In this document: one piece after another, positions 57,608 to 64,000 of the stretch
Numbering within the stretch: position 1 is the stretch's first letter
How the letters are laid out: every line of letters starts with the position of its first letter
Origin: Aurantiacibacter spongiae
Lineage (GTDB): Bacteria; Pseudomonadota; Alphaproteobacteria; Sphingomonadales; Sphingomonadaceae
Assembly (NCBI RefSeq): GCF_003815535.1
Contig: NZ_RPFZ01000001.1
Coordinates: 2,542,001 to 2,606,000, forward strand
DNA: 64,000 nt
Direction of reading: 5' to 3'
Notes under the pieces: model-generated
What the model was told of the DNA's origin: nothing
The model's input: the letters and a program-made list of their open reading frames with translations, nothing else
Databases searched by the model: none
Position numbers and translations under genes: made by a program

Positions 57608-59158
57608 TCAGTCCCCCGTCGCGGTGCAGTCGTAAACCAGTCGTTCGTTCGGGCGCGGGGGGAGGGAGGACATGACGGCCGCCTGATCGCTGCCGAGCCG
57701 CTGCGCCGCGGCTTCGGGGGCGCCGCAATCGGGCGCGTTGTACTTGCCCCGTGCCGCGCGCGCGCCGGTCATCGCCTCGCGGTCCAGCAGGTAGCGTTCC
57801 ATGATGAACTGGCCCTGGGCAGGGTCGAAGCGGTTGACCGACACCGCTGCTTCGTTGGCGGGGACGAACACGCGGGTCCAGCGGCCCCCGGCAAGGCCGT
57901 ACTGGGTGCGGCCGTTGATACAGCCGCCCGCGCCCCAGTCGATGTCCATGTCCTCCTGCGGGTCGCCGACCGCGCGGCTGCGCTGGGTGTCGAGCACGCA
58001 CTGGTAGGTGCCCGTCGCGTCGCCCGGATCGGGAATGGTGCCGGTGTCCGCCGCGCTCATCCGGGCGCGCAGGGTGTCTTCCAGCCGGGTGTCGATCTCC
58101 GCGAAGGCGGGCCGCGAGAACCAAGCGATCGCCGCGCCGGCGAAGGCCAGGAAGGCGATGCCGCCGGCGATGGCGCGCATCCGCATGTCCGCGCGCACAT
58201 GACCGTAGGCGGCGACACCGCCGGCGGCCAGCGCGACGAACAGCAGCAGCACCGCCAGGGCGAGACCGTTGTCGCGTTCCTGCATCACGGCGTAGGTCGC
58301 GCCGCGGCGGGCCTCCTCCGTCTGCCGGGCGAGCGCCTGCGCCTGTTCGCGCGCGCGGGCATCGGCGAGATCGGCCTGCGCTTCCGAACGCGCGGCTTCC
58401 TCCGCCTCGAGATCGGCGAGCGAGCGGCAGGGCATGGCGTTGAGGCGAGGGCTGACGCCGTTGGCGCGCAGGAAGGGCAGCAGCTCGCGGGTGCTGACGG
58501 CGAAGAAGAACTCGGCGTCCGACCCTTCCGAATCGGTGCCGAAGGAATTCACGCCGACCACGCGCCCGCAATCGTCGACCAGCGGCCCGCCGCTGTTGCC
58601 GCGGGCGATGGGCGCGGTGTGCAGCAGCGTGTCGAATTCGCGGCTGGGTCGCCGGCCCGAGAGGAAGCCGGTGGCCGCGACGGGCGGCTGCGGCCGGAAG
58701 ATGTCGGTGCTTGTCAGACCCTGCGCGCGGTCGACGTTCATCGGATAGCCGATCGCCGCGACCGAGCCGGACTGCGCCGGGTTCGCGGCGATGGTGAGCG
58801 GCGGCAGCCCCAGGCGCTCGGTCGTCTCGAGCAAAGCGAGATCGTTGCGGGGGGAGACCGCGACGAGCCGGGCATAGACGGCATCGCCGCCCTCCGCCGG
58901 GACGATGCCGATGGACAGCCGCTCGTCCTCAATCGCCTCGGCGACGACGTGCGCGTTGGTGACGAACCGCTCCTGGCCGACGGCGAAGCCGGTGCCGTGG
59001 CTGACGGCGAAGATTTCCTCCCCGTCGCGCCCGATGATGATGACGCGCACGACGCCGCGGGCCGCCGCCTCGATATCGGCGGGTTCGGCCCCGGCGGGCG
59101 CGGGGCACATGGCCAGTGCAGCAAGCATCAGGCCGAGAATGTGGAGAAGGGCGCGCAT
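57608..59158 (-). CDS. Membrane-spanning trypsin-like serine protease
   Basis: 516 residues. Signal peptide about 1-24, trypsin-like domain about 25-235 with the His in VTNAHVV, the Asp in SPRNDLALLE and the Ser in IARGNSGGPLVDD. A coiled-coil of Ala/Glu/Arg follows (about 250-290), then two membrane helices (about 302-320 and 333-350) and a C-terminal 160-residue domain ending in VYDCTATGD. The order protease-coil-TM-TM-domain is unusual; it is not a DegP-like protein because no PDZ domain is seen. The function is probably envelope quality control or signalling. Confidence 0.85.
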   Translation of the reverse strand: MRALLHILGLMLAALAMCPAPAGAEPADIEAAARGVVRVIIIGRDGEEIFAVSHGTGFAVGQERFVTNAHVVAEAIEDERLSIGIVPAEGGDAVYARLVAVSPRNDLALLETTERLGLPPLTIAANPAQSGSVAAIGYPMNVDRAQGLTSTDIFRPQPPVAATGFLSGRRPSREFDTLLHTAPIARGNSGGPLVDDCGRVVGVNSFGTDSEGSDAEFFFAVSTRELLPFLRANGVSPRLNAMPCRSLADLEAEEAARSEAQADLADARAREQAQALARQTEEARRGATYAVMQERDNGLALAVLLLFVALAAGGVAAYGHVRADMRMRAIAGGIAFLAFAGAAIAWFSRPAFAEIDTRLEDTLRARMSAADTGTIPDPGDATGTYQCVLDTQRSRAVGDPQEDMDIDWGAGGCINGRTQYGLAGGRWTRVFVPANEAAVSVNRFDPAQGQFIMERYLLDREAMTGARAARGKYNAPDCGAPEAAAQRLGSDQAAVMSSLPPRPNERLVYDCTATGD

Positions 59159-59239
59159 TCGCCGCCTTCTCTAGCCGCTGTGACATTGACCGCAAGCTTC
59201 GGGACGCGCAGCGTGCGCGTTCGCGATAGAGCCGCCGCC

Positions 59240-60277
59240 ATGACAGACCCCATCGACCTTTCCGACGACGAGCGCTGGCGCATCGCGCTCGCCAAGGACC
59301 GCCGCTTCGATGGCGCGTTCGTTACCGGCGTGCATTCGACCGGGATCTATTGCCGCCCGTCCTGCCCGGCGCGCGCGCCGAAACGCGAGAACGTGCGCTT
59401 CTACGCCGGTCCCGCCAGTGCCGAGGCCGCCGGCCTGCGACCGTGCAAGCGCTGCGCCCCGGACCGCCAGGGCCGCGACGAGGCGGCGGTGCTGCTTGTG
59501 CTGGCGATCCTGCGCCGGAGCGAAGGCCCGGTGCCGCTCGGCACGCTGGGCGCGGCGACAGGGTACTCGCCCGCGCATCTGCAACGCATCTTCAGCCGCG
59601 CCGTGGGCCTTTCGCCGGCGGCCTACGCCCGCGCCCTGCGGCGGGAGCGGGCGGACGAGGCGCTGGGCCGGGAAAAGCGTGTGAGCGATGCCATCTACGC
59701 GGCGGGTTACGGCGCGCCGTCGCGCTTCTACGAAGACAGGGGGGATAGCGGCATGAGCGCGAGCGACTGGCGCGGCGGCGGGCGGGGCGTGACGATCGCT
59801 CATGCGGTGGTGGAAACGACGCTCGGCCCGATGCTGGTCGCGGCCACCGCGCGGGGCGTGTGCCGTGTGTCCTTCGGCGAAGACGCGAGCGCCCTCGCGG
59901 CCCGCTTCCCCCATGCCGAGCTGGTGGCGGGAGGCCGCGGGTTCGCCGCGCTCCTGACGCGCGTGGTGGAAGCGGTGGAAACGCCCGGCAGCGGGCACGA
60001 CATCCCGCTCGACGTGCAGGGCACCGCGTTCCAACACCGGGTCTGGCGGGCCCTGCGCGATATTCCGGCCGGCGAGACGCGCAGCTACGGCCAGCTCGCC
60101 GCGGCGCTCGGCAACCCGCGGGCCGGGCGCGCCGTGGGCGGGGCGAACGGGGCGAACGGGGTGGCCGTCCTCATCCCCTGCCACCGGGTCGTCGCGGCGG
60201 ACGGATCGCTCGGCGGCTATGCCTACGGCCCCGACATCAAGCGCGAATTGCTCCGCCGGGAAGGCGCACGGTCCTGA
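59240..60277 (+). CDS. ada: Ada: bifunctional methyl-phosphotriester/O6-methylguanine repair regulator
   Basis: 345 residues. The N-terminal zinc site is C38, C42, C69 and C72 (YCRPSC and PCKRC), the same positions as in E. coli Ada; C38 takes a methyl from phosphotriesters and turns the protein into an activator. Then an AraC-type HTH (GAATGYSPAHLQRIFSRAVG). The C-terminal MGMT domain has the acceptor in LIPCHRVVAADG. It repairs methylation damage and self-induces. Divergent from the protease gene by 81 bases; no alkB or alkA is next to it. Confidence 0.95.
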   Translation: MTDPIDLSDDERWRIALAKDRRFDGAFVTGVHSTGIYCRPSCPARAPKRENVRFYAGPASAEAAGLRPCKRCAPDRQGRDEAAVLLVLAILRRSEGPVPLGTLGAATGYSPAHLQRIFSRAVGLSPAAYARALRRERADEALGREKRVSDAIYAAGYGAPSRFYEDRGDSGMSASDWRGGGRGVTIAHAVVETTLGPMLVAATARGVCRVSFGEDASALAARFPHAELVAGGRGFAALLTRVVEAVETPGSGHDIPLDVQGTAFQHRVWRALRDIPAGETRSYGQLAAALGNPRAGRAVGGANGANGVAVLIPCHRVVAADGSLGGYAYGPDIKRELLRREGARS

Positions 60278-60400
60278 ACATATGTTCAACGTCTGAACCC
60301 GCGCCGTTCCAACCCCTTGCAATAGAGGTTTCCTTAACCGTCGCAGTGTAGGCGTGGCCGGGGCTGCAAACATGCAGACCGGTCGCCGGGGAAAACCGCA

Positions 60401-62440
60401 ATGCGCATCGTCACCTGCATCGTGCACGACCACAACCTGTGGTTCGTCGCCATGGCAGCGCTGATGTGCGTGACCGGTTCGCTGGTTTCGGTCACGCTGT
60501 TCAGGCGCACGATGGCCGAGACGGGACTGGCCCGCGTGTACTGGTGCTTCATGTCGGCGATGACCGCCGGCGCGGCGACCTGGGCCACGCATTTCATCGC
60601 CATGCTCGGCTACCAGACCGACGCACCGGTCGATCTCGACAGCGTCCTCACCGTCGTTTCCGCCCTGATCGCGACGGCCGGCATCGGTTTCGGCCTGGTC
60701 TTCGCATCGCTGAACAACCGCCGGCTCGCGATCGTGGCGGGCGGTGCGACGATGGGGCTGGCGGTGGCGGCGATGCACTATGTCGGCATGTTCGCCTACC
60801 GGGTGGAAGGGATCGTGCACTGGGATTGGCGCTACATCGCCGCCTCGCTCGTCATCACGGTCGCCGGCGGCATGCTCGCGGTGCGCCGGCTGCGGACAGG
60901 GGGCGAGCGGCTGATGATCGTGCAGGCGGGCGCGCTGCTGTCCCTCACCATCGTCGGTCTGCACTTCGCCGACATGGCGGCCTTCTCGGTGACGCCGCTG
61001 CCGGGAATCTCGCATGTCGACGACAGCGAGATCTTCACCGGCATGGCCGCCGCGATCGGCATGGTCGCACTCCTGATCGTGGGCACCGGCATGTCCACCT
61101 ACGTCATCGAGCGCAAGACCAGCAGCGAGAGCGAGGATCGCATCGCGCACATCGCCATGCACGATTCGCTCACCGATCTCGCCAACCGCCACCAGTTTAC
61201 CGATCTGCTGGAGGCCGAGTGCGACAAGCTCAAGCGTTACGGTCGTCCGTTCTCGCTGCTGATGGTCGATCTCGACCGGTTCAAGCCCATCAACGACACG
61301 CTCGGCCACCCGATCGGCGACGCGGTGCTGCAACGGGTCGCCAACCGGTTGTGCGTCGCCGTGCGTTCGGGCGATGTCGTCGCGCGGCTGGGGGGTGACG
61401 AGTTCGCCATCCTGGGCTTCGGCATCCGCGACAGCGGCACCGCCGCATCGCAGGCCGCGCGCATCGTGGAGATCCTGTCGCGGCCGATGATCGTCAACGG
61501 CCATGTCATCGAGCTGAGCGGCAGCGTAGGCTTTGCGGTCGCGCCCGAACACGGCAGCGACCCCGAAAACCTTATCCAGCACGCCGACATCGCGCTGTAT
61601 TCCGCCAAGCGCGACGGCAAGCGCACGTTCCGCATGTTCGAGGCGAGCCTGATGGAGGACATCCGGCGGCGCCGCTCGCTCGAGGCGGCGCTGCGCCAGG
61701 CGTGCATGCGCGACGAGTTCACCATCGCCTATCAGCCCGTCTTCAGTTCCGCGAGCGGGGAGATCAGCGGAGCCGAGGCGCTCGTCCGCTGGACCTGCGC
61801 CGAACGCGGGCCGGTATCGCCGGTGGAGTTCATTCCCGTCGCAGAGGAGCTGGGACTCGTATCGCGCATCGGGGCCGATGTGCTTCGACGGGCGTGCAAG
61901 GACGCCGCATCTTGGCCGGGCGGCCTGGATCTCGCCGTCAACGTCTCGCCGGTGCAGTTGCTCGATCCGCGCCTGCCGCAGACCGTTGCCCGCGCGCTGG
62001 AGGATTCCGGCCTCCAGCCAGAGCGGCTGGAACTGGAGATCACGGAGACGGCGCTGCTCAACAACGACGAAGCGGCGCTGCGGACGCTGACGCAGATCCA
62101 GGAACTTGGCGTGCGTATCTCGCTCGACGATTTCGGCACCGGCTATTCGTCCCTTAGCTATCTTCACCGCTTCCCGATCAGCCGGATCAAGATCGACAAG
62201 TCGTTCGTCCAGCGGTTGCCCGACGATCTCGGCAGCGCCTCCATCGTGCGCGCCATCGCCCAGCTCGGCGAGAGCCTGAGCATGAAGATCACCGCCGAGG
62301 GTATCGAGACCGACGGGCAGCTGACCTTCATCCGCGAACAGGGCTGCGATCACGTCCAGGGCTTCCTGACCGGACACCCCATTCCCGCAGAGGCCTTCGC
62401 CGATCTCGTGGCGAGAGCCGCGCGGGTGGCGGCCTCGTGA
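60401..62440 (+). CDS. MHYT-GGDEF-EAL c-di-GMP signalling protein
   Basis: 679 residues. The membrane MHYT sensor (about 1-240) has three motif copies: ATHFIAML, AMHYVGMF and GLHFADMA. GGDEF domain (about 265-400) with intact GGDEF in RLGGDEFAI, and EAL domain (about 420-670) with AEALVRW and LDDFGTGYSS. Both catalytic sites look intact, so it could make and degrade c-di-GMP. MHYT may sense CO, NO or O2 through a bound metal. The next gene, a BLUF protein, starts 19 bases later. Confidence 0.94.
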   Translation: MRIVTCIVHDHNLWFVAMAALMCVTGSLVSVTLFRRTMAETGLARVYWCFMSAMTAGAATWATHFIAMLGYQTDAPVDLDSVLTVVSALIATAGIGFGLVFASLNNRRLAIVAGGATMGLAVAAMHYVGMFAYRVEGIVHWDWRYIAASLVITVAGGMLAVRRLRTGGERLMIVQAGALLSLTIVGLHFADMAAFSVTPLPGISHVDDSEIFTGMAAAIGMVALLIVGTGMSTYVIERKTSSESEDRIAHIAMHDSLTDLANRHQFTDLLEAECDKLKRYGRPFSLLMVDLDRFKPINDTLGHPIGDAVLQRVANRLCVAVRSGDVVARLGGDEFAILGFGIRDSGTAASQAARIVEILSRPMIVNGHVIELSGSVGFAVAPEHGSDPENLIQHADIALYSAKRDGKRTFRMFEASLMEDIRRRRSLEAALRQACMRDEFTIAYQPVFSSASGEISGAEALVRWTCAERGPVSPVEFIPVAEELGLVSRIGADVLRRACKDAASWPGGLDLAVNVSPVQLLDPRLPQTVARALEDSGLQPERLELEITETALLNNDEAALRTLTQIQELGVRISLDDFGTGYSSLSYLHRFPISRIKIDKSFVQRLPDDLGSASIVRAIAQLGESLSMKITAEGIETDGQLTFIREQGCDHVQGFLTGHPIPAEAFADLVARAARVAAS

Positions 62441-62459
62441 TTTCCGAAAGGCGCACGCG

Positions 62460-62906
62460 ATGCCGATGAGCAGGCTCCTCTACATCAGCCAGTCGAACCT
62501 CGTCGACGGCGAACGCTCCGTGCAGGAGCAGGTGCACGAAATCGCGCGATCTTCCGCGGACCGCAATCGCAAGGTCGGTCTGACCGGCAGCCTGTTGTTC
62601 GTCGACAATCATTTCATCCAGGTGCTGGAAGGCGACACGGCGACGATCGAAACCGTCTTCGAGCGTATTTGCTGCGACTTCGATCATCGCGAGGTCAAGC
62701 TGATCGACCTCGTCCCGGTGAAGGATCGACTGTTCGGCCACTGGCACATGGCGGTGATGTCGGAAGACGACGATACCGTACTGCCGCTGCGCGACGAATT
62801 GCAGCACATCCGCTTCCTTGTCGGCGTGAACGCGTGGAGCGCCGTCGACCAGATGCGCGAATGCCTGCAGATGCGCACGGCGAGCGAGCGGCAGCTGGTT
62901 CCCTGA
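62460..62906 (+). CDS. BLUF blue-light sensor protein
   Basis: 148 residues, a stand-alone BLUF domain. The flavin-cycle residues are all present: Tyr8 in RLLYISQS, Asn36 in DRNRKVGLTG, Gln54 in HFIQVLEGD, and Trp95/Met97 in FGHWHMAVM. It should bind FAD and respond to blue light. The stop of the MHYT-GGDEF-EAL gene lies 19 bases upstream with a ribosome site GAAAGGCG in the gap, so the two are likely one operon. It could regulate the neighbour by direct contact. Confidence 0.92.
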   Translation: MPMSRLLYISQSNLVDGERSVQEQVHEIARSSADRNRKVGLTGSLLFVDNHFIQVLEGDTATIETVFERICCDFDHREVKLIDLVPVKDRLFGHWHMAVMSEDDDTVLPLRDELQHIRFLVGVNAWSAVDQMRECLQMRTASERQLVP

Positions 62907-62922
62907 TCCGCGAGGCGGCCCG

Positions 62923-64000
62923 TCAGTCCGTGCGCGCCCAGGTCTTCGCCGCCGGCACCAGCGTATCCAGAAAGGCCTCCGCGCTGTCGAGGTAGTCCTG
63001 CCGTTTCGCCTCGTCCATCCGGTCCCAGTTGGCATAGATGCGACCGACCCGGTGGTTCGATTCCAGCCGGTCGCGATGCCGGATCATGAAATGCCAGTAG
63101 AGCGGGTTGAACGGACAGGCGCCTTCGCCGGTCTTCTTCGACGGGGAATAGGCGCACCCCGAGCAGTAGTCGCTCATCTTGTTGATGTAGTTTCCGCTCG
63201 CCGCATAGGGCTTGGTCGCCAGCTTTCCATCGTCGGCATAGAGGATCATCGCCGCGACGTTGGGTAGCTCGACCCATTCGTAGGCGTCGGCATAGACGAT
63301 GAGATACCAGTCCTGCACCTCGCGCGGGGAAATCCCCGCAAGCAGCGCGAAATTGCCCAGCACCATCAGCCGCTGGATATGGTGGGCGTGGGCATTGTCG
63401 CGGGTCGAGCGGATGCAGTCCGCGAGGCAGGCCATGTCGGTGTCCCCGGTCCAGTAGAACTCCGGCAGGGCGCGCCGGGCGTCGAGCGCATTGGCCTTTT
63501 GCAGATGCGGCATGTGAAACCAGTAGAAGCCGCGCACATATTCGCGCCAGCCGATGATCTGACGGACGAACCCCTCCACCGAATTGAGCGGGGCGTTGCC
63601 GTCCGCGTAGGCCTTCGCCGCCCGCTCGCACAAGTCGAGCGGATCGAGCAGGCCGAGATTGAGGCTGGTGGACAGCATCGAATGATACAGGTCGTCCTCG
63701 CCCGCCACCATCGCATCCTGGTATGGGCCGAACTTCTCGATACGTTCGGCGAAGAAGGCATCGGCGGCTTCCTCCGCCTCCTCGCGCGTGACGGGCCAGT
63801 GGAAGGTGTCGAGCGCGCCGAAATGGTCGGCGAAGCGGTCCTGGACCAGGGCGATCACCTCTCGCGTGATGTCGTCGGGTTCGAACTTCGGGCGTTCGGG
63901 CGGGTCCATGTCGTCTGCGGGCGGCTTGCGGTTCTGCTTGTCGTAGTTCCATTCGCCGCCCTCGGGCAGGTCGCCATCCCGGCCCGTCATCAGCAGCCCG
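62923..64000 (-). CDS. phrB: Iron-sulfur (6-4) photolyase / FeS-BCP (PhrB type), 5' end outside window
   Basis: The frame is open to the window edge (residues GLL before the Met at 63990), so that Met is not the start; about 359 residues are visible of about 500. The [4Fe-4S] ligands are the Cys in DMACLADC and the CSGC and GACPF cysteines; the spacings from the first to CSGC (88) and inside the triplet match PhrB. The FAD/DNA domain has WREYVRGFYWFHMP and ANALDARRALPEFYWTG. It repairs (6-4) lesions with blue light. Convergent with the BLUF gene by 17 bases. Confidence 0.88.
   Translation of the reverse strand, partial: GLLMTGRDGDLPEGGEWNYDKQNRKPPADDMDPPERPKFEPDDITREVIALVQDRFADHFGALDTFHWPVTREEAEEAADAFFAERIEKFGPYQDAMVAGEDDLYHSMLSTSLNLGLLDPLDLCERAAKAYADGNAPLNSVEGFVRQIIGWREYVRGFYWFHMPHLQKANALDARRALPEFYWTGDTDMACLADCIRSTRDNAHAHHIQRLMVLGNFALLAGISPREVQDWYLIVYADAYEWVELPNVAAMILYADDGKLATKPYAASGNYINKMSDYCSGCAYSPSKKTGEGACPFNPLYWHFMIRHRDRLESNHRVGRIYANWDRMDEAKRQDYLDSAEAFLDTLVPAAKTWARTD

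Follow-up and report, generated by a model that had tools for sequence, protein, structure and literature searches.

A conserved two-gene module of an MHYT-GGDEF-EAL enzyme and a stand-alone BLUF protein in Alphaproteobacteria, with predicted light control in trans

BLUF domains bind flavin adenine dinucleotide (FAD), absorb blue light and pass into a red-shifted light state. In BlrP1 and BluF (YcgF), the BLUF domain stands at the N-terminus of a single chain in which it is coupled to an EAL domain, with no MHYT domain; in Rhodopseudomonas palustris, papA and papB are adjacent to each other. Light raises the phosphodiesterase activity of BlrP1 4-fold, and PapB is a short BLUF protein that acts, by way of its C-terminal helices, on a separate solo EAL protein, the phosphodiesterase PapA (PMC8846402). 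A short BLUF protein also acts in trans in the PixD-PixE system of Synechocystis, the partner of which is response-regulator-like and not an enzyme of cyclic di-GMP (c-di-GMP) turnover (PMC5899715). Pairs in which a short BLUF protein works in trans with an EAL protein are already known. Here we describe a related locus in a stretch of 64,000 nucleotides from Aurantiacibacter spongiae (contig NZ_RPFZ01000001.1, positions 2,542,001 to 2,606,000; the window), in which the gene for a membrane c-di-GMP enzyme with MHYT, GGDEF and EAL domains is followed by the gene for a stand-alone BLUF protein. By the description of PapB-PapA, the two are alike in having a stand-alone BLUF protein with an EAL protein encoded beside it, but the partner in the window is an MHYT protein with both GGDEF and EAL sites intact and not a solo EAL protein. 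Unlike the fused BlrP1 and BluF, the two parts are separate open reading frames (ORFs) with the BLUF gene downstream.

The enzyme gene (60401..62440, + strand) encodes 679 amino acids, with Pfam scores of 80 bits for MHYT (in two stretches), 155 bits for GGDEF and 233 bits for EAL. In an alignment of 12 enzymes, one of which is the window's, the GGDEF motif at residues 331-335 and the RxxD I-site residues R322 and D325 are invariant, as are E459, N514, E546, D576, D577, K597, E633 and Q653 of the EAL domain and H64, M68, M125, H126, M130, H188 and M192 of the three MHYT motifs. These GGDEF, I-site, EAL and MHYT residues are assigned the roles that are usual in their domain families. Judged by the presence of the catalytic and I-site residues, the protein is putatively competent as a GGDEF-EAL enzyme; its His/Met motifs are those of the MHYT sensor family (PF03707), from which a membrane domain is predicted. 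A review calls the activity of MHYT unknown (PMC8846402).

The BLUF gene (62460..62906, + strand) begins after a gap of 19 bases (62441..62459) that contains an AAAGG run before the start, and it encodes a protein of 148 amino acids made up of a BLUF core and C-terminal helices. Its Pfam score for BLUF (PF04940) is 79.9 bits, well above the cut-off of 25. Residues Y8, N36, Q54 and W95 are invariant in all 13 close rows and in all 24 rows of a wider alignment (the window's protein being counted in both), and M97 is invariant among the former and conserved at a level of at least 90% among the latter. The roles of the flavin-contacting Tyr, Asn and Gln have been described for PixD (PMC5899715). 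A search of the genome (2.86 Mb, 2 contigs) returned this single BLUF match. The AlphaFold2 model, with a mean predicted local distance difference test (pLDDT) score of 91.4, consists of the BLUF core and two helices at residues 108-123 and 125-145. Searched against the PDB, it gave the best E-values with photoactivated adenylate cyclases, for example OaPAC, and among the stand-alone BLUF proteins it matched TePixD, BlrB and Slr1694, so that the likeness to the short, trans-acting BLUF of PixD-PixE extends to PixD-type structures.

To follow the pair beyond the window, named genomes were scanned with a BLUF-only pattern, FE[RS]ICxD[FL]RH, which reaches only those relatives that retain this stretch, resulting in 30 loci. 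A GGDEF-EAL gene lies immediately upstream on the same strand at 29 of these, and an MHYT match was observed in the upstream enzyme at 28 of the 30, in 26 of them within a single frame with EAL. When several BLUF starts were possible, the one 4 bases inside the enzyme gene was chosen if present, and otherwise the start nearest to the BLUF core; of the 29 BLUF genes so placed, nine have a start that reaches 4 bases into the enzyme gene, one overlaps it by 1 base and 19 begin 9-18 bases past its stop. The hosts belong to the Sphingomonadales and the Rhizobiales, the latter represented by Methylobacterium, Mesorhizobium, Xaviernesmea, Aliirhizobium, Aurantimonas and Chenggangzhangella. In a second genome set, which shares part of its genomes with the first, 12 of the 13 orthologues of full length have the pair. 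Among the loci listed, the genes that flank the cassette vary in most cases. Matches also turned up on 25 plasmid records, the two best being from Croceicoccus marinus. When the search was made from the enzyme's side among 397 genomes of the family (own genome excluded), all of the nine best MHYT relatives carried the BLUF cassette, as did one of the next eight. The adjacency of BLUF and enzyme genes is far beyond chance, and the MHYT-GGDEF-EAL and BLUF genes together form a conserved module. The sequence-only reading of this DNA had described a c-di-GMP protein with intact GGDEF and EAL sites, followed 19 bases later by a BLUF protein that keeps Tyr8, Asn36, Gln54 and Trp95, and had proposed that the two genes belong together and that the same neighborhood should be sought in relatives; the ORFs, Pfam matches and alignments agree with both descriptions, and the 29 of 30 loci together with the clade-restricted linkage described below agree with the pairing.

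Some of these loci deserve separate mention. In L120 (Chenggangzhangella) and L122 (an Aliirhizobium plasmid) the upstream enzyme gene is broken across reading frames, either by decay or by a sequencing error; the label "fused" that L120 received in the BLUF tree arises from these broken frames, and no fusion is present. L098, a metagenome contig labeled Halieaceae, has GGDEF and EAL upstream with MHYT not matched; its BLUF hardly differs from the Qipengyuania flava one, and the contig is probably mis-binned.

Linkage to an EAL gene is not a general property of BLUF genes. A family profile search identified BLUF in 150 of 298 genomes, and only 17 of 397 had a protein that matched the BLUF of the window at an E-value of 1e-15. 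A non-random control of 52 further BLUF loci from the family, composed of the 30 best Pfam scores and 22 loci from a genus search and covering 1.5 kb to either side of the gene, had an EAL gene directly upstream in five cases; in a sample of the class this was so in 1 of 29, a locus that is also among the five. A Rhizobiales sample had GGDEF-EAL upstream at 10 of 30 loci, comprising the Methylobacterium one and nine of a second type. In a BLUF tree of 150 sequences (165 entries less 15 that were identical or lacked a BLUF match), EAL linkage is confined to two clades and a single linked sequence elsewhere: clade I, which contains the window's BLUF, has 37 of 38 members linked (Shimodaira-Hasegawa-like approximate likelihood ratio test, SH-aLRT, 99) and clade II 17 of 17 (SH-aLRT 98). 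The linkage label changes four times on this tree against a mean of 44.9 after shuffling, with none of 500 shuffles as low. A tree of 42 MHYT enzymes, which leaves out five of the 30 loci from named genomes and three of 19 second-tier regions for want of a whole three-domain frame with a start, showed two linkage changes against a shuffled mean of 13, again with 0 of 500 as low. EAL linkage is inherited within BLUF clades; the number of its origins is not told by the tree.

The BLUFs of clade II that lie directly downstream of GGDEF-EAL genes are those of L174-L176, L178-L182, L184, L018, L020, L022, L025, L091, L093 and L134; the clade also includes L090. In all 10 of the clade II partners fetched, the N-terminal part is without MHYT. 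L090 (7866-10001, - strand, in genome G051) encodes a natural fusion, a GGDEF-EAL-BLUF chain of 712 amino acids with its BLUF domain at the C-terminus, in an order unlike that of BlrP1 and BluF, and it backs a direct coupling of BLUF and enzyme. A candidate mark of docking on the enzyme was also considered, namely the Ala that precedes the EAL glutamate in 26 of 26 BLUF-linked and 0 of 14 unlinked enzymes (L134 and L139 excluded). It was rejected and is a clade marker at best, since it occurs in 0 of 17 sequences of the second clade and in 9 of 34 unlinked rows, the labels of the latter being possibly impure because duplicates were removed without relabeling. A different kind of MHYT protein was observed at L138 (G300), where it has no GGDEF or EAL matches and is divergent from a BLUF gene about 1 kb away; its C-terminal part, read by eye, resembles a histidine kinase plus receiver, and transposase-like fragments surround it.

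Since the two genes stand side by side in many species, the sensor probably steers that enzyme, and we consider it likely that 60401-62906 is a two-gene photosensory module in which BLUF controls the membrane c-di-GMP enzyme in trans, in the manner of PapA/PapB. The spacing suggests that both genes would be co-transcribed and are probably translationally coupled. The conserved pocket, together with what is known of the family, indicates that the BLUF protein should bind FAD and absorb blue light. Its C-terminal helices may then dock on the GGDEF-EAL part of the MHYT protein, as suggested by clades I and II, which both keep BLUF although their partners have unlike front parts. The docked protein would alter the c-di-GMP output of the enzyme in the light, with the MHYT domain possibly adding a second input from the membrane side, for which the sequence-only reading had proposed a gas. 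In PapB-PapA, transfer of the signal is attributed to the C-terminal helices (PMC8846402), and these matter in other BLUF proteins (PMC10634658). As to direction, BlrP1, BldP and PapB-PapA are all tabulated as light-activated phosphodiesterases (PMC8846402), and by this precedent we would expect, with some reserve, that blue light raises EAL phosphodiesterase activity and lowers c-di-GMP. Searches of the genome gave eight PilZ matches, of which two share a frame, and none to flagellin; attachment or envelope outputs are for this reason likelier than flagella. One further protein of the genome (L230, 3923-6712, - strand, C1) has the composition PAS-GGDEF-EAL-PilZ, and thus unites an enzyme and a receptor of c-di-GMP in a single chain.

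Several observations weigh against light control of the enzyme by BLUF. Such control is a prediction from sequence, and because both the GGDEF and the EAL sites are intact, the sequence does not tell the sign of a light effect. Seven next-tier MHYT-GGDEF-EAL genes in family genomes are without BLUF, indicating that this type of enzyme can work alone; these proteins have the same domain order, they are, in seven family genomes, the nearest relatives that lack a BLUF neighbor, and in the enzyme tree none of them lies in the fork of the 26 BLUF-linked MHYT enzymes, which itself has an SH-aLRT of 90. Two rows inside this fork, L134 and L139, are unlinked and have other BLUFs within about 1 kb in a different arrangement. 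The orphan BLUF of Alteraurantiacibacter buctensis (L103/L075) has no EAL gene beside it and a search of that genome (G302) gave no MHYT match; a BLUF of the window's clade can therefore do without an MHYT partner. In the BLUF tree, 58 of 147 inner branches are left open, and because the rows are related, the label counts show clustering and not independent events. A consensus scan of 60200-63100 found no promoter- or terminator-like site. A C-terminal patch of the BLUF protein, in which the 13 close rows all have L120 and N124 and at least 90% of them have A125 and A128, was rejected as a general docking mark, since these columns are no longer among the conserved ones in the wider alignment of 24 rows.

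The orphan also favors an account in which BLUF and the enzyme are expressed together but BLUF has another target, so that the neighborhood reflects shared regulation only. BLUF proteins do bind unrelated partners, as in AppA-PpsR, BluF-BluR and PixD-PixE (PMC5899715). We nevertheless regard this account as improbable, as evidenced by a pair kept across two orders, a linkage limited to particular BLUF clades, and the existence of a natural BLUF fusion with GGDEF-EAL. Another possibility accepts the coupling but reads it as a light-switched gate on a bifunctional enzyme, in which BLUF toggles between cyclase and phosphodiesterase modes and the MHYT signal decides which, the two inputs acting jointly. 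The invariance of the GGDEF, I-site and EAL residues in all 12 sequences would fit it, as would the retention of BLUF in clade II in spite of a different front sensor. In many GGDEF-EAL proteins, however, an intact GGDEF acts as a guanosine triphosphate (GTP)-binding regulator of EAL, and we find the joint gate rather doubtful. Equally tentative is a broader picture, that of a recurrent alphaproteobacterial two-input switch in which a dedicated BLUF subunit would gate a membrane-anchored enzyme with cyclase and phosphodiesterase sites in trans, light would set, depending on the MHYT signal, whether c-di-GMP is made or broken, and the docking would have been re-used with another front sensor in clade II and fixed once as a C-terminal fusion.

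Photolyases are enzymes that use blue light, and the sequence-only reading had placed the one next to the pair, a convergent photolyase with iron-sulfur cysteines, in a general light-response region. The identification stands. The gene (62923..64000, - strand, with its stop at 62923) has 358 codons within the window and its N-terminus past the window's end; the full protein of 527 amino acids aligns with Agrobacterium PhrB (4dja) over 510 residues (E-value 1.2e-184), with the cysteines, which we take to be the ligands of the iron-sulfur cluster, in register. It is hence an iron-sulfur-type (6-4) photolyase, to be compared with PhrB and CryB. The wider role proposed for it was not upheld. With the window's photolyase as query and up to 5 kb covered on each side, none of the 30 named loci has a photolyase, and none of 20 BLUF regions outside the window shows one in its neighborhood. 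Within the genus, a photolyase is present in 27 of 40 genomes and the cassette in three (G000, G305 and G327), with the orphan BLUF in G302; G327 gave no photolyase match at an E-value of 1e-30, and in G305 the cassette and the photolyase are on different contigs. At 7 of 26 photolyase loci of relatives, Ada and photolyase genes are direct convergent neighbors with a gap of -4 to 53 bases and no cassette between them. Its adjacent, convergent position and its use of blue light would fit a single response of BLUF, enzyme and photolyase, but the comparison contradicts such a response, which we regard as highly improbable. The photolyase is an incidental neighbor outside the module. An in-frame TGA was noted in the photolyase gene of L223 (G326).

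The cassette sits in the window between this photolyase gene and that of an Ada-type methyltransferase (59171..60277, + strand), which is preceded by a protease-like gene (57608-59158, - strand, as read from the sequence). The protease-like, Ada and photolyase genes stand side by side at 6 of the 26 genus photolyase loci; beyond the seven loci at which Ada and photolyase are direct neighbors, Ada is about 1 kb away in 4 of 26, and 15 of 26 have no Ada within 1.5 kb. The cassette was probably inserted into a DNA-repair pair of Ada and photolyase, with the Ada gene as its presumed left edge, a reading drawn from seven loci, two of them in genomes (G305 and G302) that bear the cassette or the orphan BLUF elsewhere. 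On this simplest reading, the photolyase neighborhood says nothing on function. Alternatively, the cassette may have been lost in those relatives in which Ada and photolyase are neighbors. No convincing mobile-element border repeats were found at the cassette, and its GC content showed no clear foreign signature.

The pair of MHYT enzyme and BLUF was undescribed among the matches listed in a literature search, and it does not appear in the passages covered of PMC8846402, PMC4844311, PMC12172448, PMC8805636, PMC3509220, PMC10634658 and PMC5899715; this absence is weak, because the search took in few subscription papers and did not return the original report on PapB-PapA. What appears to be new is the MHYT partner with both active sites, together with the breadth of the pairing and its clade structure.

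These findings identify the enzyme that is likely to be the dedicated partner of stand-alone BLUF proteins throughout one clade, and the arrangement in trans could become an optogenetic tool for c-di-GMP. They also give MHYT enzymes a light handle, as a BLUF switch could reveal what the MHYT domain adds. In Erythrobacter flavus 21-3 (now Qipengyuania flava), LOV and phytochrome kinases are reported to link blue light to c-di-GMP, and blue light to drive the production of zero-valent sulfur via LOV and c-di-GMP (PMC12172448). In the passages covered, that account of strain 21-3 does not mention the cassette, which is carried by another strain of the species, DSM 16421 (L097). The module suggests that in Erythrobacteraceae and Methylobacterium blue light may also act on c-di-GMP by a path other than the LOV and phytochrome kinases.

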